64,000 bases of DNA from Planctomycetota bacterium (GTDB lineage: Bacteria; Planctomycetota; Planctomycetia; Pirellulales; PNKZ01). The position numbers and the translations under genes are program-made. Location: assembly GCA_018242585.1 (NCBI GenBank), contig JAFEBQ010000049.1, positions 1-64,000 of the forward strand, in the 5' to 3' direction. Within the stretch, counting starts at the first letter, position 1, and the number at the start of each line of letters is the position of its first letter. The notes under the pieces are model-generated. The model was given only the letters and a program-made list of their open reading frames with translations. It was not told the origin of the DNA and searched no databases. Of this stretch, positions 34,279 to 46,633 are shown piece after piece.

Positions 34279-34827
34279 ATGCAGTACGACAGGTATCAGC
34301 GCGCCGGGGTTCACCTGGAATGCGCCGATCGGGCAGGGAGGGAGCCAGCATCGAGGCTGACCGGGTTCCATCCTACACCATCTGTGGCCGATGCTGGGAA
34401 CTTCGTCACGTCGGCTGGCATCCAAAGGGCTGGAAGGGTGAAGTCAGACGTGTTTCGCTTCTGATCGCCTTGCGTGCCACCAATTTGGGTGGGTGGCAGT
34501 TGGGTTGAAGTGGTCAAAGCGGATGTACTAAAACCCGGTCAAAACGGCCCTAGCGATTGCCGAGCGGCCGGGCCTTTGGCACGCCGTATTCAACGGGATT
34601 TTTCTTGATAATTCGCGACGAAGGTGAATAGACTGTAAGCGTTTACAGCCCTTTTTCGCCAGTTCTGGCCAAGAGTTTCAGGCACGTCCTCCAGGCTCGC
34701 CGCCGCGCAACATGCGTTGGCGATTGATCTTGAGCTATGGTTGGATTGCGCCGCACTCTCGCTTGGCCGGGCTGCTGGCATTTTGCATTCTCATGCTGTT
34801 CGAGTGTTCTCAAGCGCGGAGCTAGCC
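34279..34827. other. Long divergent intergenic region
   Basis: About 550 bases between the MFS gene and the large vWA protein gene. A candidate promoter lies at 34605-34634. The rest shows no supported gene. Confidence 0.4.
34605..34634 (+). promoter_or_regulatory. Candidate sigma-70-type promoter
   Basis: TTGATA (34605-34610) and TAGACT (34629-34634) with 18 bases between. It would start transcription about 190 bases upstream of the large vWA/secretin-like protein gene. Confidence 0.35.
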
Positions 34828-37800
34828 ATGAAGATTTGGACCGGGCGTTGGAATCGCTTGGCACACACGTTGTTTGTCGCCGTCGTTTGCGCCGCGCCTC
34901 TTGCGCAGCCTGCTCGTGCGGAAGTCACGATTCCCTACCACGGCGACGGCGTCGCGCCGGCCGACGTCTACAACAAAGCCGACGGCGACGTGTACTACTC
35001 GGCCGCCTTCATGCCGAACGGCGCGCGACCCAAATCGATCAGCCCCAACGTGGTTGTGTTGTTCGACACCTCGGCCAGCCAGATCGGCGCCATCCGCGAC
35101 AAGGGGCTCGACAGCCTGAACGCCATGCTGGCCTCGCTGCCGGCTGACACGCGCGTGCAATTGACGGCGGTCGACCTCGACGCCTATCCGCTCACCAAAG
35201 GTTTCGTCGCGCCGCGCAGCGCGGAAATGAATGACGCCATTGCCCAGTTGAAGGCCCGCGTCCCGCTCGGTTCGACCGACATGGAAGCGGCCCTGAGGAG
35301 CGGCCTCGACAACCTGGCCAGCGCCTCGGGCGAACGCTCGATCGTCTACATCGGCGACGGCGTCAGCAACGCCATGATCGTCGGTTCAAGCCGGCTCAAG
35401 TCGATGGTCGATCGCTCGATTGCTCAGCGGACTTCGATCCATTCGTTCGCCGTCGGGCCGCGCGTCGACAGCGGGCTGCTCGGCGCGTTGGCTGCCCAAA
35501 CAGGTGGCAACATCGCCATTGATGACGACTCGATTGCTCCTCGCGCTGTCGGCGCGTTCTTGACCGAATCAGTCACTGCGCCGGTTGTTTGGCCGGTGGA
35601 CGTCAAGTTGGCCCCAGGCTTGGGCGAGACGTTGCCGCAACACCTGTCGCCGCTTCGCTATGACCGCGAGTCGGTCCTGGTGGGGCATGCGGGGGCCGCG
35701 CCGAGTGGAGCGGTCTCGGGCACGTTTGAAGTGCAGGGTCAGCGCGTCGACATGAAGTGGGACATCAAGGCTTCGGCCTCGAGCGATGAGAACTCGTACC
35801 TGTCGGAAGTAACGAACCTGGGCAAGCGTGACGCGGGGCTCAGTTTGCCGCTGGTTGGCACTGCTGGTCTGCGTACGCTGCGGACCCTGGTTCATGCCCA
35901 GGCCCACGCGATGGCTCGGCTGGGCCAGCAAGCGGCGGTGACCGGCAATGTCGAACAAGCTCGTCGTCTGACGGCCGAGGCGTTGCGGCTGGACGCCAAC
36001 GAGCCCGAGGCGGCCGCAGTGCGTGCGGCGCTCGACCGCGGTGGCAATGACGCCACCGGCGGCAAGCGCGACTTGCGGCTGGTGAAGTTCAACGCCGACG
36101 AAGCGGTCGAGCCGGGGGCTGCCAAGGCTGACGAAGCCCCGGTGGCTGACGCTCCGGCCGCCGCGGCCGATGTCGACGCCGAGTTCTTAAAGCAGGTCAA
36201 CGAGAATCGGGCCGCGTTCGCTGGCAAGGTTCAAGCCGAAGTAACCGCGACGTTGCGCGCGGCACGTGGCGTGATGGCAACCAATCCCGACCAGGCGGCC
36301 GACATGTTGCGGCTGAAGCTGGAGGAAGTCCGCCGGGCGCAAGAGCTGCCGGCCGAAGTGCGCATGCAGTTGAACGATCAACTTGAATCGGCGCTGCGTG
36401 AAACGCGGCGTCAAAAGGAAGCCAAGGATCAACGCGACATCCAACGGGCCGCCGCCGACGCCGAAGCCGAGCAGCGGGCGCAACTGAACCGCGAGATTCG
36501 CGACTTTCAGAACCGCAAGAGCCAGTTGATGGAGCGGTTCAATTCGCTGTTGGACGAGCGGGCCTATCAGGAAGCCTCGGCCCAGGCGGACGAAATTCGC
36601 CAGAACGAGCCGAAGGCCGGCCCGCCGTTCCTGAGCCAAACCCAATTGACCGCGCGTCGGATCAATAGCACGAATCGCGCTTGGTTCATTCAGTACGAAT
36701 CCCGTGAAGCAACCGCCGCGATGTTGAACTCGATCGTTGAATCGAGCATTCCGACCCCGGACGAGCCGTCGGTGATTTATCCCGATCCGGATAGCTGGCG
36801 TCTGCTGACCGAGCGCCGCAAGAAGTACAAGAACGTCGACTTGGCGCAAAGCAAGCCGAACGAAGTCAAGATCATCAACGCGCTCGACGAGCCGACCGAA
36901 CTCGAATTTATCGAAGCGCCGCTGACCGACGTGATCGACTTCTTGAAGAACAAGCACAAGATCGAAATTCAGCTCGATCGCAAGGCGCTGGAAGGTGGCG
37001 GCGTCGCCACCGATACGCCAATCACTCGCAACCTGCGCGGCATTTCGCTCCGCTCGGCCTTGCGATTGATGTTGCGCGAACTGGAATTGACCTACGTGAT
37101 CCGCGACGAAGTGTTGCTGATCACGACCAAGACCGAAGCCGATACGCTGCTGACGACCAAGGTGTACCCGGTCGCCGACCTGGTGATTCCGATCCGCGTG
37201 ACCAACCCGTTGCAGGGTGGTTTGGGCGGTGGCATGGGTGGCGGCATTGGTGGCGCCGGCGGCGGCATGGGTGGCGGCATGGGCGGCGGCATGGGTGGCG
37301 GCATGGGGGGCGGCATGGGGGGCGGTGGTGGCTTCTTCGACGTCAAGGACGATCTGAAGCTTGGCCCCAAGGCCGCGAAGCCCATTGCGGCTCCGGCCAA
37401 GCTCGCGGCGCCCCAAGCTCCGATCGCGGCTCTGCCCCAGGCCAAGCCGGCCCCCGCGGCCCAGCCAGCGGCCGCTGGCCCCGCGGCTCCCGTGAAGCCG
37501 ATCGAGTTGAACCTGGTCAAAGGCACTGACATCGACAAGATTTGGAACGAGTACTTCAGTTCGCACGAGGAATCGCCGGCCGTAGTTCGTGAAACGGTGC
37601 GCCGACTGATGATCACCGGTCACGCGGACCAGGTGATTGCGATTATCAATGCGGCCCTACGAAACAATCAGGCCCAGCCGTGGATGTACGAAGCGCTGGG
37701 GCTGGCCATGCAAGCCAACGGCGCGTTGCCCCAAGATATTGAACGGGCGTTGATGTCGGCCGTCGATCTGGCCAATCGGCCCAGCGACCTGCTGTTCGTG

Positions 37801-38868
37801 GCCGAATACATGGTCCGCACCATGCCGGGCAACCGCCCGATCGAGCAACGGGCGTTGAAGCTGTTCCGCCAGGCGTCGGAGTTGGAGCCGCAACGCTCGG
37901 AGCCGCTGGTGCAGGGGTTAGCATTGGCCCAACGCTTGAACGACATCGAAGGCATTCGCTGGAGCACGGTCGGCATCCTTTCACAGGCCTGGCCCAAGTC
38001 GCAACAGCAGATTCCCGAGTTCGCCCAGCGCGTGGCCCTGGCGGCTTACGAACAACTGCGGGCTGAAAAGAAGACCGAAGCCGCGGCGGCCTTCAAGGCC
38101 GACGTCGAGAAGGCCGCCGCCCGCGATTGCGTGGTGGTGGTCAGTTGGTCGGGCGACGCGGACATGGACTTGCTGGTCGAAGAACCGACCGGCGCGGTCT
38201 GTTCGTTTCGCAATCCACGCACCACCGGCGGCGGTGTGATGGTCGGCGCCTCGGCGAACGACGCGGCCAGCGCCTCGACCGAGGGGATGTCGAGCGAAGC
38301 CTACGTCTGCCCGCAGGGTTTCAACGGCATGTACAAAATGATGCTCCGCCGCGTGTGGGGCAAACCGACGGTCGATCGCGTGACGGTTGACTACTACACG
38401 CATCGGGGCACGCCCCAGGAAAAGCATTCGCGCAAGGTGGTCAGCCTGGTCAATGGCGAAGCGAGCGCGGCCTTTGAATTGCAACAAGGGCGTCGCACCG
38501 ACCCGCTCGAACAAGAGCAAGTCGCCAATGCCATCGCCGGCCAGGTGGCTGTTGGCAAGGCGATTTTGGCCCAGCAGTTGGGCAACGTGAATAACGCCGC
38601 CGGCAGCAACAATGCCTTGACGGACTTCCTGGCCGGGGCGAGCACGGGCTTGTTCGGCCTGCGTGGCGCGGTCGGTTACCAGCCGGTCATCATCACGCTG
38701 CCGACCGGCTCGAACTTCAACACCACGGTGGTCGTGTCGGCCGATCGCCGCTACGTGCGTGTTACGTCGGTGCCGTTCTTCTCGAGCGTGCCGGTCGTCA
38801 ACACGTTCAACTATGCCGCCGGCACCGGCGGCACCAGCGGTGGCTCAACGTCAGGCTTCGGCTCGTAA
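34828..38868 (+). CDS. Giant exported protein: vWA, secretin-like and DUF2135-like domains
   Basis: 1346 residues, with a signal peptide ending QPARA-EV. A vWA domain (about 74-255) has the MIDAS FDTSAS with Asp80, Ser82 and Ser84. A helical, partly coiled-coil region follows (about 400-600, Glu/Gln/Arg-rich). A short secretin/TonB N-terminus-like module (about 685-788) contains ITRNLRGISLRSALRLMLRE. A Gly-Met repeat (about 797-832, GGGMGGGMGGG) comes next, then TPR-like helices (about 880-1050). The C-terminal DUF2135-like region (about 1102-1198) has VVVSWSGDADMDLLVEEPTG. The start follows a GGAG. A terminator follows. This looks like a large envelope protein built from several protein-interaction modules; the precise role is unknown. 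Confidence 0.8.
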   Translation: MKIWTGRWNRLAHTLFVAVVCAAPLAQPARAEVTIPYHGDGVAPADVYNKADGDVYYSAAFMPNGARPKSISPNVVVLFDTSASQIGAIRDKGLDSLNAMLASLPADTRVQLTAVDLDAYPLTKGFVAPRSAEMNDAIAQLKARVPLGSTDMEAALRSGLDNLASASGERSIVYIGDGVSNAMIVGSSRLKSMVDRSIAQRTSIHSFAVGPRVDSGLLGALAAQTGGNIAIDDDSIAPRAVGAFLTESVTAPVVWPVDVKLAPGLGETLPQHLSPLRYDRESVLVGHAGAAPSGAVSGTFEVQGQRVDMKWDIKASASSDENSYLSEVTNLGKRDAGLSLPLVGTAGLRTLRTLVHAQAHAMARLGQQAAVTGNVEQARRLTAEALRLDANEPEAAAVRAALDRGGNDATGGKRDLRLVKFNADEAVEPGAAKADEAPVADAPAAAADVDAEFLKQVNENRAAFAGKVQAEVTATLRAARGVMATNPDQAADMLRLKLEEVRRAQELPAEVRMQLNDQLESALRETRRQKEAKDQRDIQRAAADAEAEQRAQLNREIRDFQNRKSQLMERFNSLLDERAYQEASAQADEIRQNEPKAGPPFLSQTQLTARRINSTNRAWFIQYESREATAAMLNSIVESSIPTPDEPSVIYPDPDSWRLLTERRKKYKNVDLAQSKPNEVKIINALDEPTELEFIEAPLTDVIDFLKNKHKIEIQLDRKALEGGGVATDTPITRNLRGISLRSALRLMLRELELTYVIRDEVLLITTKTEADTLLTTKVYPVADLVIPIRVTNPLQGGLGGGMGGGIGGAGGGMGGGMGGGMGGGMGGGMGGGGGFFDVKDDLKLGPKAAKPIAAPAKLAAPQAPIAALPQAKPAPAAQPAAAGPAAPVKPIELNLVKGTDIDKIWNEYFSSHEESPAVVRETVRRLMITGHADQVIAIINAALRNNQAQPWMYEALGLAMQANGALPQDIERALMSAVDLANRPSDLLFVAEYMVRTMPGNRPIEQRALKLFRQASELEPQRSEPLVQGLALAQRLNDIEGIRWSTVGILSQAWPKSQQQIPEFAQRVALAAYEQLRAEKKTEAAAAFKADVEKAAARDCVVVVSWSGDADMDLLVEEPTGAVCSFRNPRTTGGGVMVGASANDAASASTEGMSSEAYVCPQGFNGMYKMMLRRVWGKPTVDRVTVDYYTHRGTPQEKHSRKVVSLVNGEASAAFELQQGRRTDPLEQEQVANAIAGQVAVGKAILAQQLGNVNNAAGSNNALTDFLAGASTGLFGLRGAVGYQPVIITLPTGSNFNTTVVVSADRRYVRVTSVPFFSSVPVVNTFNYAAGTGGTSGGSTSGFGS
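37216..37326 (+). repeat. Gly-Met tandem repeat within the vWA protein gene
   Basis: GGTGGCATGGGC-type 12-base units in tandem encode repeated GGMG, joined to a Pro/Ala/Lys-rich linker. In-frame tandem repeats like this can change length by slippage. Confidence 0.8.
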
Positions 38869-41987: not shown

Positions 41988-42659
41988 TTAGCCCAGGCGG
42001 ATGTGATGGGCCCAGGCCGGCGGCAGGTTCCCCCAGACCCATTCACAGCGGATTCGCCCGGCGGCGAACAGCTCGTGCAGGGCGTCGCTGATTCCGGCGA
42101 GGCGTTCGCGCTGCTGGCGGCTGCCCACGCGGGCCCGCAGCGGGCGAATGGCCATGTATTCGAAGAAAGACAGGGTTCCCCCCGGCCGCAACAGCCGGCG
42201 ATAGACCGTCAGAATCTCGCGCACCAATTGGACCGGGAAGTTGTTCAGCGGCAGCCCCGAGACGATGACCTCGAACTCCGAGCCGGAGGGGAGGTTTTCA
42301 AGCCGGTCGTGGACGATCGTGGCCTGGTGCTTGACCGCCTGAAACGCTGACTCGTGGTCGAAGCGATGCCGCAAATGAGCGACGAACTCGTCGTTCAGCT
42401 CGACCAGGGTCAGGTGGTCGTTCGGCGCCAGTCGTTTCACCAGCTCGCGGGTGATCGCCCCGGTGCCAGGACCGACTTCCAGAATGGCTCGCTTTGTTCC
42501 GTCCGTCGGATGCTCGGCCACGAACCGCGTCAGCGCCCGAGCCAGCGTCCGGCTGCTCGGCGCCAAGGAGCCGGTCGTCTGAAAGTTGCGAACGAACTGG
42601 CGGAAGAAAACGCGATGTTCCGAAGGCATGACGGGCTGGCGCAGCGTGAGGGGTTCCAT
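41988..42659 (-). CDS. Class I methyltransferase, PmtA/KsgA-like
   Basis: 223 residues. SAM-binding motif I is ILEVGPGTGAITRELVKRL and the acidic post-motif is LTLVELNDEFVAHLRHRF. The N-terminus FFRQFVRNFQTTGSLAPSSR followed by TLARALTRF matches the start of bacterial phosphatidylethanolamine N-methyltransferases of the PmtA type, which share a fold with rRNA dimethyltransferases. Methylation of phospholipid is therefore likely but not proven; VSGLPLNNFP is the catalytic-loop region. Lies upstream of the protease on the same strand, about 190 bases away. Confidence 0.7.
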   Translation of the reverse strand: MEPLTLRQPVMPSEHRVFFRQFVRNFQTTGSLAPSSRTLARALTRFVAEHPTDGTKRAILEVGPGTGAITRELVKRLAPNDHLTLVELNDEFVAHLRHRFDHESAFQAVKHQATIVHDRLENLPSGSEFEVIVSGLPLNNFPVQLVREILTVYRRLLRPGGTLSFFEYMAIRPLRARVGSRQQRERLAGISDALHELFAAGRIRCEWVWGNLPPAWAHHIRLG

Positions 42660-42735: not shown

Positions 42736-43266
42736 TTACCCGCGGGGATACTGGCGGCAGTACTCGTACAGCGCGATCGTCGTGGCCGTGGCGACGTTGA
42801 ACGCATGGGGCGGGCCCCAGACCGGGATTTCGACCACATCGTCCAGGACGCTCAGTATCTCGGGGTCGATGCCCCGTCGCTCGTTCCCGACGACCAGCAC
42901 AGCCCGGCGCGGAAATTGATATTCCAGGATCGACTTCGACGCCGAGGTCTGTTCCAGCCCGACCAGCCGGTAACCTTCGCGCTTCAGCTCCAGCAGCGGG
43001 TGCAGCAGCGTGCGATGAACGTCGAGTTGGACGCCCGAAGCGTCATCAGGGCTGTCGCTGCCGTCGTCGACCGCGTCGCGGGCAATCTTGCCGATCACGC
43101 GGGCCTGGCCACAGCAGACGACGCGCGTGACGCCGCAACACCCCGCGGTTCGCACGATGCGCGACAGATTCACATTGCTGCGCAGCGGCGCGCAGGCCAC
43201 GATCAGCTCGCGCGGCTGATCCAACGGGCTGAACGGTTGATGACGCTGTTGGACAAACTCGCTCAT
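42736..43266 (-). CDS. SPOUT/TrmH-type RNA 2'-O-methyltransferase
   Basis: 176 residues, a single SpoU-like SPOUT domain. N-terminal NVNLSRIVRTAGCCGVTRVV carries the conserved Asn/Arg. The SAM-binding knot is VLVVGNERRGIDPEIL with VVEIPVWGPPHAFNVATATT at the C-terminus. The last motif is NVATATTIALYEY in place of the common NVS-A family ending. No RNA-binding extension, so like TrmL/TrmH-like small enzymes that methylate ribose in rRNA or tRNA. It precedes the PmtA-like gene on the same strand. Confidence 0.85.
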   Translation of the reverse strand: MSEFVQQRHQPFSPLDQPRELIVACAPLRSNVNLSRIVRTAGCCGVTRVVCCGQARVIGKIARDAVDDGSDSPDDASGVQLDVHRTLLHPLLELKREGYRLVGLEQTSASKSILEYQFPRRAVLVVGNERRGIDPEILSVLDDVVEIPVWGPPHAFNVATATTIALYEYCRQYPRG

Positions 43267-43269
43267 CGC

Positions 43270-44019
43270 TCAGAATCGCAGCCGCTTGAAGATCGACTCG
43301 GGCAACGCACAGATGACACCCAGGATGATTCGCCACCACCAAGGAGTGTACAGGACGTCGCGCTGGCGGCGGAGGGCCCGGTCGATATCGCGAGCCACCC
43401 GCTCGGGCGAGGCCACCAGCGGGCTCTTGACGTTGACGCGGCCGTGAATCATCGGCGTGTCGACGAACCCGGGCTTGATCGTCAGGACATGGATCCCGTG
43501 GCGAAACAGCCGATTGCGCAGCCCTTGTAGATAGGCCGACAGGCCGGCCTTGGCCGCGCCATAGGCATAGTTGCTCTGCCGACCGCAATCGCCGGCCACC
43601 GATGAAATGGCGGCCAAGGTGCCGGATCGCTGGGGGATCATTCGCTCGGCCAGCCGATCCAGCAGGACCGCCGCCGAGGTGAAATTGACGTCGATCGAAC
43701 GCCGGAGGAGGTCGCTCGACTGTTCGCATTCGCGCTGATCGAGCAACAGCCCGTGGCAGATCACCGCTCCGTCCAGGCGTCCCCGGCCGCGTTGCCATGC
43801 GCGGTCAACCAGGCCGGCGTGTTGGCCATCATCCTCGGCGTCGAATGTCTCGGGCCAGACGGTCGCGCCGTGCTCCGAGCGCAACTCGGCGGCGATTTTT
43901 TCAACGGTGTCCACCTGGCGACCGGTGATGACCAGCGCGCAGCCCCGGGCGGCCATTACGTGGCAAAGTGCCCGGCCGAGGCCCGACGTGGCGCTGACAA
44001 TCAACCAGGTTTCGGCCAT
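43270..44019 (-). CDS. SDR reductase, DprE2-like
   Basis: 249 residues, short-chain dehydrogenase. N-terminal LIVSATSGLGRALCHVMAAR replaces the usual TGxxxGxG with SATSGLG. Active-site Ser in AISSVAGDCG and Tyr-x-x-x-Lys in YAYGAAKAG are intact, and there is VLTIKPGFVDTPM after it. The C-terminus has a hydrophobic stretch (WWRIILGVICALPES) typical of membrane-associated DprE2-like reductases, which reduce the 2-keto intermediate in decaprenyl-phosphoryl-arabinose synthesis. It lies next to the HAD-UbiA gene and 3 bases from the SPOUT gene, so the four form a compact co-directional group. Confidence 0.7.
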   Translation of the reverse strand: MAETWLIVSATSGLGRALCHVMAARGCALVITGRQVDTVEKIAAELRSEHGATVWPETFDAEDDGQHAGLVDRAWQRGRGRLDGAVICHGLLLDQRECEQSSDLLRRSIDVNFTSAAVLLDRLAERMIPQRSGTLAAISSVAGDCGRQSNYAYGAAKAGLSAYLQGLRNRLFRHGIHVLTIKPGFVDTPMIHGRVNVKSPLVASPERVARDIDRALRRQRDVLYTPWWWRIILGVICALPESIFKRLRF

Positions 44020-44065
44020 CTAACATCCCCGGTACGGCGGCGCGTCCCGCAAGCGCAAACAACGT

Positions 44066-45571
44066 CTAGCCGCCCCAACTCGCCGCTACGGCGACCGCGG
44101 CCATCAAGGCGCCGACCAGCAGGCTGGTACGATCCCCCAATGCGAAGGCAATCGGGTCGTCGTGCAATTGCTGCCGCTTGGCCAGAATCCAGAAGCGACT
44201 GATCCAATACATTAACAGCGGGCATTCGAGCCACAAGAGCCGCGGGTGATGGTACAGCACCTTGACCACGTCGCTTTGCAGGTAGAGGGCCAGCACCAGC
44301 ACCGCGAGATACCCGCTGCAAGGCCCCAGGACTTCGAGCAGCGACAGGTCGCCAATCGAGTAGCCGCGTGCCCGAGCCGAGGTCGTGGTGGTCTCGCCCA
44401 GTTGTGACAACTCGCAGTAACGCTTGCCAAACGCCAGCGACGTGAACAGGAACAGCGACAAGGCCAGCAGCCATTCCGAGATTGGCACGCTGGTCGCTTC
44501 GCCGCCGGCAATGATCCGCAGGGTGTATAAGCTGGCCAGCAAGATGACGTCGATCATTACCTTGCGCTTAAGCCAGAACGAATATCCCGCCGCCAGAATC
44601 ATGTAGATGACCAGCATTCCAGCGAAGCTGACGGGCAGGGCAACGAGCGCAATGAGAAATGCCACCGCCAGCAAACCGGCGGCCAGTGGCAACGCCTTGG
44701 CCACCAGGTACGCCCCGCTGGCCAGCGGGCGGTTGCGCTTGCGCGGGTGGGCTCGGTCGGCTTCAATGTCGAAGGCATCGTTCAGGACATAAGCCGCCGA
44801 CGCGCACAGCGAAAAACTGAGCGCTCCCCAGAACGCGGCCAGCCATTTGTCGAGGACACCCATCTGGTGAGCCAACAAGAACGGCAGGAACAACAACACG
44901 TTCTTGATCCACTGCTTCGGCCGCAATAGCTCGATCAGCGCCGGGCGCGACGAGCGATGGGGCAGCAGAATCTGGACCGGCGTCGCGCGAGTCAGCAACT
45001 GGCCCAGCACCGCATCGGACGCGGTCACCGTCACGGCCAGCGCGGCCCGTTCCCAAACGGCCAGATCGGCCCGGCTGTCTCCCAGGTAGGCAAAGTTCGC
45101 GTAGCCTCGCTCTTGGCAGTATTTCAACAGAGTGTCGCGCTTGATCGGCCCCTTGATGTTGCGGGTGCCGTCGCTGCCGATCACGTCGTCGAACAGATCG
45201 AGGTGCTCGGCAACCTGGTTAGCCCACAATTGGTCACTGGCCGTGGCCAGAACGACGCGACAGCCGTTCTCGCGGGCCTGACGCAGGTAGTCGATCACTT
45301 CCTGGCGATAGGGGAGATTGCGAACGTCGATCGACGCCAACTGATACATATACCGCTTGGCCGGCGCCAGGCCACGGCGAGACGTCTCGATCAGTCCCAA
45401 CAGAGCCGTCGGTTGATGCCGCAGGCCCGAGACAATCGCCTCGGCCGAGATATCGGACGCGATTAGCGTCTGGTCCAGATCGACGAATACCACGTCAATC
45501 GTCGGCGGCGATGGTGGCGACAGGTGCCCCAGCGGTGAACCGGTCGAAATGGTGGGAGTCGGCAACGACAT
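44066..45571 (-). CDS. HAD phosphatase - UbiA prenyltransferase fusion
   Basis: 501 residues. N-terminal HAD domain (about 25-200) with nucleophile Asp31 in VFVDLDQTL, Thr/Lys in VVLATASDQL and IKGPIKRDTLL, and Asp in YLGDSRADL. The C-terminal UbiA domain (about 215-500) has RPKQWIKNVLLFLP, the prenyl-diphosphate motif NDAFDIEAD (264-272) and eight or so helices. This arrangement corresponds to decaprenyl-phosphate phosphoribosyltransferase (Rv3806c-type) fused to a phosphatase (Rv3807c-like), giving a polyprenyl-phosphoryl-ribose. Its neighbour is a DprE2-like SDR. DprE1 was not found in the window. Confidence 0.8.
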   Translation of the reverse strand: MSLPTPTISTGSPLGHLSPPSPPTIDVVFVDLDQTLIASDISAEAIVSGLRHQPTALLGLIETSRRGLAPAKRYMYQLASIDVRNLPYRQEVIDYLRQARENGCRVVLATASDQLWANQVAEHLDLFDDVIGSDGTRNIKGPIKRDTLLKYCQERGYANFAYLGDSRADLAVWERAALAVTVTASDAVLGQLLTRATPVQILLPHRSSRPALIELLRPKQWIKNVLLFLPFLLAHQMGVLDKWLAAFWGALSFSLCASAAYVLNDAFDIEADRAHPRKRNRPLASGAYLVAKALPLAAGLLAVAFLIALVALPVSFAGMLVIYMILAAGYSFWLKRKVMIDVILLASLYTLRIIAGGEATSVPISEWLLALSLFLFTSLAFGKRYCELSQLGETTTTSARARGYSIGDLSLLEVLGPCSGYLAVLVLALYLQSDVVKVLYHHPRLLWLECPLLMYWISRFWILAKRQQLHDDPIAFALGDRTSLLVGALMAAVAVAASWGG

Positions 45572-45628: not shown

Positions 45629-46633
45629 TTATTTGGCGGCCGGAACCTCGCCGGCAATGATTGCGTCGAGCGTTTCGTTCAGGTGATCGAACGCGCTACC
45701 CGACCAGCGTTGCTTGGCGTAGGCGTCGAGCGCGGCCATTGGCCAAATCTGGGTCGCCCGCACGATCGAACTGCGCGACGCCCGGGCCGTGGGCATGATG
45801 TTGCCAAAGCCGAAGTCGGTGAAGCAGATAAAGCTCTTGATGCTGCACTCTTCGACGTTCGTGGGAGTCTTGTAAATGCCCATGTAGTTCAGGTTCGTGC
45901 GTTGCTCGGTGGTGATAAACGTATGAATCGCCAAGTCGCCGTCGGCGGTCGGCGTCGCGCGCAAGAAACCGATCTCGTAGTTCGGCCGCGTGCGCGGCGG
46001 CGAAACATCGATCGGCGTGGTCACCACCTGATTCCGATTGACCATCACCAGGGTTCGCAGGGCCTCGGCCGTGACCTCGGCGCCCGGCTTGACGTACAGC
46101 CCCAGGCTGCGGGCGTCGCGCACCGAGTTGCGGACCATGTCGTTGAAGTCCTGGGCGCGGTTGCCGTTGCTATACAGAGCCACCGCGGCGTAAGTCTTGT
46201 AGTACAGATGGGGCGCGCCGTTTGGGCCGTGCCGGTGGACTCGAACCTGGACGCTGACATAGTTGCCGTTGACCGTGTCCAGAATGCGGCTGCCGCTTAG
46301 GAACGGCAGCCGGGCCTGATCTTGTGGGAGCATGCTGGCTCCCAGGCTCATGAACGTCCGCCGACAGGCGTCGAACTCGGTCGGCACGACCTGCTGGTCG
46401 ATTTGCAGCCGATAGACCGGCTTGTGCCGGAAGTCGTTGATTTCCAACGCCTCGCCCGAGGCTACTTGTTCGCAGCTCATCCCCTCGGCGGCCCGATGGG
46501 CCTCGATGATCTCGGCTTCGGTGCGGGGGATGGTGCGAATGACGCCCCAATCGAGCGCCATCGGCTCGGCCCCCGTCGCGAGCGCACCACTCAACAGCAG
46601 CCAAACAGCGAAGATCGATGGCAGTTTGGCCAC
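45629..46633 (-). CDS. Secreted protein of unknown function
   Basis: 334 residues starting GTG (MAKLPSIFAVWLLLSGALAT), with a signal peptide and the ribosome binding site AGGAG. There are several Cys in the mature part (MSCEQVASGE, DACRRTFMSL, VEECSIKSFICF), so disulfides are possible. No known domain was recognised. LGASMLPQDQARLPFLSGSR and SVQVRVHRHGPNGAPHLYYK are typical segments. It is upstream of the HAD-UbiA gene with a 57-base gap on the same strand. Confidence 0.6.
   Translation of the reverse strand: MAKLPSIFAVWLLLSGALATGAEPMALDWGVIRTIPRTEAEIIEAHRAAEGMSCEQVASGEALEINDFRHKPVYRLQIDQQVVPTEFDACRRTFMSLGASMLPQDQARLPFLSGSRILDTVNGNYVSVQVRVHRHGPNGAPHLYYKTYAAVALYSNGNRAQDFNDMVRNSVRDARSLGLYVKPGAEVTAEALRTLVMVNRNQVVTTPIDVSPPRTRPNYEIGFLRATPTADGDLAIHTFITTEQRTNLNYMGIYKTPTNVEECSIKSFICFTDFGFGNIMPTARASRSSIVRATQIWPMAALDAYAKQRWSGSAFDHLNETLDAIIAGEVPAAK

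Follow-up and report, generated by a model that had tools for sequence, protein, structure and literature searches.

Few organisms are known to use D-arabinofuranose, a naturally rare sugar whose most familiar place is the cell wall of mycobacteria; drugs are aimed at its synthesis there. The window analysed here, a stretch of 64,000 nucleotides from a planctomycete genome (order Pirellulales), encodes a HAD-UbiA fusion protein beside an SDR-family reductase, and the question it raises is whether this organism can make the lipid-linked donor of that sugar. A first-pass annotation had read the pair as a phosphoribosyltransferase fused to its own phosphatase and a DprE2-like reductase, together accounting for three of the four mycobacterial steps. 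Sequence comparisons, trees and a fold search support this enzymology, and we consider it very probable, on sequence evidence, that the genes described below make polyprenyl-phosphoryl-D-arabinofuranose, a lipid-linked sugar donor. The features concerned are listed here by window position.

44066..45571, minus strand: HAD-UbiA fusion, 501 aa, predicted to join an N-terminal phosphoribose phosphatase to a polyprenyl-phosphate phosphoribosyltransferase (NF006088, PF12710 + PF01040, tree)
44957..45571, minus strand: HAD (phosphatase) half of the fusion, residues 1-205, motifs intact; role assigned by analogy with the corresponding domain of ORF15 from Citrobacter (PMC11127046)
44066..44956, minus strand: UbiA (phosphoribosyltransferase) half of the fusion, residues 206-501 (8j8j alignment, residue comparison, Foldseek)
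43270..44019, minus strand: DprE2-like SDR (predicted 2'-keto reductase), 249 aa, triad S140-Y153-K157
42736..43266, minus strand: TrmH/SpoU-type RNA methyltransferase, 3 bp downstream of the SDR gene

The fusion and SDR open reading frames were confirmed at these positions, with the SDR gene lying 46 bp downstream of the fusion gene. The fusion carries a HAD domain (PF12710, 45.1 bits; cut-off 27) and a UbiA domain (PF01040, 72.2 bits; cut-off 34.2) in a single frame, and it passes the NCBIfam model for HAD-UbiA proteins (NF006088 / PRK08238) with 549.5 bits against a cut-off of 351, covering profile positions 14-481 of 482. The TrmH-like gene is probably co-transcribed, but we do not count it among the pathway genes. 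Promoter and terminator patterns around the fusion and SDR genes were not clearly above chance. The gene immediately upstream of the fusion (45629-46633, also on the minus strand) encodes a 334-aa protein that is probably secreted and has no family match in Pfam or NCBIfam. Also in the window are a 223-aa methyltransferase (41988-42659, minus strand), nearest to the lipid N-methyltransferases OlsG and PmtA and far under their cut-offs, and a 1383-aa protein (34717-38868, plus strand) that contains a von Willebrand A domain as well as a long stretch rich in glycine.

The closest solved structure to the UbiA half, by sequence search, is the decaprenyl-phosphate phosphoribosyltransferase Rv3806c of M. 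tuberculosis (8j8j, E = 2.3e-30). We compared 14 positions in an alignment of 106 proteins, comprising the residues of Rv3806c that bind PRPP and the lipid phosphate (roles from PMC10994848) and two further conserved residues. Thirteen are identical to Rv3806c (R22, K28, Y70, N73, D77, D81, K87, R90, Y138, K143, Y157, R160 and K191; in fusion numbering R217, K223, Y261, N264, D268, D272, K278, R281, Y330, K335, Y349, R352 and K383). The remaining one, Q135, is Ala in the fusion; this column varies family-wide, being mostly Q, N, T, S or A. In a maximum-likelihood tree, all 16 fused proteins, the window fusion among them, form one clade (99/99) whose members come from planctomycetes and from plasmids of proteobacteria, and quinone and heme UbiAs fall outside it on very long branches. 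The fold predicted for the UbiA half (pLDDT >85 over most of its length) has 8j8j as its top PDB match in Foldseek (TMt 0.84, compared with 0.60-0.67 for other UbiAs); many residues of the HAD half are at pLDDT <50, and its fold matches were left out.

A rival reading takes the UbiA domain for an ordinary prenyltransferase (quinone, heme or other) joined to a HAD phosphatase, and weak matches to distant UbiA models (heme O, 4-hydroxybenzoate) speak for it. This reading is nevertheless barely credible, given the tree, the fold search and the diagnostic phosphoribose residues: K28, Y70, Y157 and K191 are absent from the heme and quinone UbiAs of the same genome and of E. coli. The genome also has, judging by eye from the sequences, a separate heme UbiA (L001, next to genes resembling cox and ctaA) and a probable menaquinone UbiA (L002, next to a UbiX-like and an MqnE/CofH-like gene). 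The UbiA domain of the fusion groups with the Rv3806c type; a grouping with quinone prenyltransferases, which would have refuted the first-pass annotation, is not seen.

In the HAD half, the catalytic motifs are intact (D31-L-D33-Q-T, T110, a Lys at about position 144, and GDSRAD at 164-169). The Citrobacter HAD + UbiA protein ORF15 makes polyprenyl-P-ribose in vitro from PRPP and farnesyl phosphate, and its D18A mutant accumulates the 5-phosphate form (PMC11127046). In mycobacteria the 5-phosphate is removed by a phosphatase of an unrelated family (PMC11127046), and the fused HAD would therefore be an analogous, not a homologous, replacement.

The adjoining SDR (PF00106, 120 bits) has M. tuberculosis DprE2 as its closest solved relative (21gq, E = 8.1e-29; runner-up 9.6e-16). 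It stays below the curated NCBI cut-offs, with 161.8 of 250 bits for the DprE2 equivalog NF053786 and, narrowly, 264.3 of 267 for NF005489. "DprE2-like" is therefore the proper wording, and the tie to DprE2 comes from a tree that combines eight other SDRs of the window genome with DprE2 proteins of three phyla, each encoded beside dprE1 in its own genome. The window SDR nests inside the DprE2 set, beside the DprE2 proteins of two other planctomycetes (G057 and G142), with weaker inner forks (82-94), and the other SDRs of its genome are excluded from the group (100/99); the second refuting condition, an SDR remote from DprE2, does not hold either. The other SDRs found in the genome are only 22-31% identical to the window SDR, the one SDR of the genome that matches NF053786 at E<=1e-30.

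A search of the genome with FAD_binding_4 gave five loci, one of which is DprE1-like, so that the missing DprE1 homologue, for which the first-pass annotation had asked as a check, was found. It lies at C2:105286-106611, on a separate contig from the fusion and SDR genes, and encodes 457 aa when counted from an ATG 22 codons into a 479-aa frame. Its top PDB match is DprE1 (E = 2.8e-93), and the FAD-site motif HGKNHH and a catalytic Lys equivalent to K418 are conserved. It clusters with the dprE1 products of G057 and G142 (100/99). Its score to the DprE1 equivalog NF053785 is 449 bits, below the cut-off of 500. Since none of 195 genomes of the planctomycete phylum passes the cut-off of either NF053785 or NF053786, both appear to be tuned to Actinobacteria. 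With the fusion, the SDR and this gene, the genome has genes for all four predicted chemical steps, dprE1 standing apart.

We surveyed the 195 planctomycete-phylum genomes, counting fusions above the NF006088 cut-off, and found the fusion in 10, a DprE1-like gene in 57 and a DprE2-like gene in 46. In 43 of the 46 genomes with a DprE2-like match, dprE2 lies <=3 kb from dprE1; the window genome is among the exceptions. DprE1 and an Rv3806c-type UbiA, fused or not, occur together in 45 of the 57 (Fisher p = 1.4e-9, a value inflated by shared ancestry). The orthologues of the window genome's fusion, dprE1 and dprE2 form a contiguous trio in G057 (dprE1-dprE2-fusion) and G142 (fusion-dprE1-dprE2), and the G142 order recurs in G003. 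No other genome among the 6 in the family of the window genome has DprE1 or a full-scoring fusion.

These linkages bear on whether the polyprenyl-P-ribose made by the fusion could be used directly, for alpha-ribofuranose side chains, with the SDR and the distant DprE1 acting elsewhere. Citrobacter ORF15 works in this way without DprE1/E2 (PMC11127046), dprE1 is unlinked to the fusion in the window genome, and six of the ten planctomycete genomes with a fusion have no DprE1-like gene, so that some members of the phylum probably use only the ribose form. For the window genome we regard this as unlikely, because the orthologues of its SDR and of its C2 DprE1 stand in one contiguous block with the fusion in both G057 and G142, and because it has no other DprE2-matching SDR. 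Arabinose donor synthesis is accordingly our preferred reading for this genome.

The survey also turned up variant loci. A Pirellulales MAG (L010:9929-11404) has a fusion with a broken HAD motif (DLESG, not DxDxT) and intact UbiA residues, followed by a 503-aa multi-pass membrane protein that matches no Pfam family and for which the window genome gave no homologue. L155 (G198:C142:13775-14800), from the same family as the window genome, is a decayed HAD-UbiA paralogue that retains the HAD motif and has lost the UbiA NDxxDxxxD. In one planctomycete family (f33), the fusions L076, L077 and L081 show changes in the HAD domain (DPDGT, GNLRND, a missing loop) and come from genomes that gave no DprE1-like match; these are perhaps ribose-only or phosphatase-inactive. 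Also common in the phylum is a second, divergent DprE1/DprE2-like pair (L152, L153 and L154), which scores about 250-305 bits against DprE1. Its two genes are adjacent, with no UbiA found nearby, and the L152 pair is near a Polysacc_synt flippase; the divergent pair may act on a different substrate. Several members of family f16 (G012, G062, G075 and others) have a DprE1-like gene and no DprE2 match at E<=1e-30.

Gene presence, family membership, active-site residues, orthology and linkage in relatives can be read from the sequences, and on them we base the following proposal for the catalytic steps, lipid, flippase, transferase and acceptor. The UbiA half would transfer 5-phosphoribose from PRPP to a polyprenyl phosphate, likely undecaprenyl phosphate, and the fused HAD half would strip the 5-phosphate to give polyprenyl-P-ribose. 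The DprE1-like flavoenzyme (C2:105286-106611) would then oxidise C2 of the ribose, and the DprE2-like SDR would reduce the 2-keto sugar with inverted stereochemistry, yielding arabinose. The donor would be flipped across the membrane, for which the candidate is an EamA/DMT transporter, and a putative GT-C enzyme would then arabinosylate a surface glycan or protein. That the same redox route ends in another pentofuranose, such as xylofuranose, is very improbable. Citrobacter O2 does make xylofuranose from the same ribose lipid by an epimerase, but it uses the single epimerase ORF13 and no DprE1/DprE2 pair, and the systems with DprE1/E2 homologues are the arabinose ones (PMC11127046).

The candidate flippase gene, encoding a full-length EamA-family protein of 300 aa, is directly upstream of C2 dprE1. 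The other planctomycete dprE1 loci compared have no DMT transporter nearby, and the link is thus seen only in the window genome. GtrA, considered as a flippase, gave a single match, inside a 482-aa frame. The reading-frame lists of the fusion and dprE1 loci contain no adjacent glycosyltransferase, MATE or Wzx gene, and the linked MATE flippase and GT-C (GT136) of the three-component pentofuranose system (Kelly 2024) are absent beside both. A search of the genome for an Emb-type arabinosyltransferase (PF04602) gave no match, with a positive Corynebacterium control. Three multi-pass proteins encoded beside the clusters in G142 and G041 were considered as arabinosyltransferases and set aside: a Na+/H+ antiporter, a Na/sulfate symporter and a protein without a family, none a recognisable GT-C. 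PMT_2-type GT-C genes gave 15 matches (13 above the cut-off), none attributable to the arabinose-donor pathway.

The first-pass annotation took the locus as a pointer to a pentose-containing envelope polymer, a step that our results do not support: we identified no acceptor, glycosyltransferase or Emb-type enzyme. Because an Emb-type transferase is missing from the genome and the precedents, Citrobacter and pilin among them, are side chains and protein glycans, a mycobacterial-style arabinan is less likely than decoration. A full donor route does predict that these planctomycetes bear D-arabinose on a surface glycan; descriptions of glycans from the phylum are scanty. We tentatively suggest that planctomycetes with these genes might carry a D-arabinofuranose glycan or glycoprotein coat, undescribed in the phylum, built with the EamA/DMT flippase and an unrecognised GT-C, although we hold this with considerably less confidence than donor synthesis itself. 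In the literature searched, which left most subscription journals outside, DprE1 in planctomycetes comes up in one incidental mention in a paper on sulfatases, and the arabinose-donor route in these bacteria, like its frequency among them, seems to be unreported.

The mycobacterial pathway to decaprenyl-phosphoryl-arabinose (Rv3806c, a phosphatase, DprE1 and DprE2) has the same four chemical steps, with homologous enzymes at steps 1, 3 and 4. It differs in the phosphatase (PMC11127046), for which the planctomycete has the fused HAD, in C387 of DprE1, which is Ala at the aligned position in C2 DprE1, in the Emb-type transferases, and in the lipid, which in the planctomycete is probably undecaprenyl. 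Outside Actinobacteria the locus is less surprising than it had seemed in the first-pass annotation, as related systems are known from Citrobacter, Pseudomonas, rhizobia and proteobacterial plasmids (PMC11127046, PMC12369383, PMC5080398). ORF15 of Citrobacter youngae likewise combines a HAD phosphatase, at its N-terminus, with a UbiA of the Rv3806c type, and its activity is proven in vitro (PMC11127046). In its system a MATE flippase and a GT136 transferase are linked to it and there is no DprE1/E2, whereas the planctomycete fusion has no linked flippase or transferase and is adjoined by a DprE2-like SDR, with DprE1 elsewhere.

PMC12369383, citing Harvey 2011, describes D-arabinofuranosylation of pilin in Pseudomonas paraeruginosa via the same donor route (PSPA7_6245-6251). 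The rhizobial noeCHOP/noeCNHOP genes provide arabinosylated Nod factors by this route too, with noeC, noeH and noeO corresponding to three of the four mycobacterial steps (PMC5080398). Both belong to specialised gene islands or operons, each with a dedicated transferase of its own (TfpW and NoeP), while the genes of the window genome are scattered. Further parallels are plasmid operons of Salipiger profundus (NZ_CP014802) and Burkholderia stagnalis (NZ_CP156687), in which a fusion of the same clade is followed by an FAD oxidoreductase and an SDR; unlike the genes of the window genome, these all lie in one cluster, which includes a GtrA gene. On another proteobacterial plasmid the fusion is followed by a mannosyltransferase-like gene. 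Several other Gram-negative bacteria have been shown before to carry this toolkit, so the planctomycete genes represent an extension of its range, not a new mechanism.
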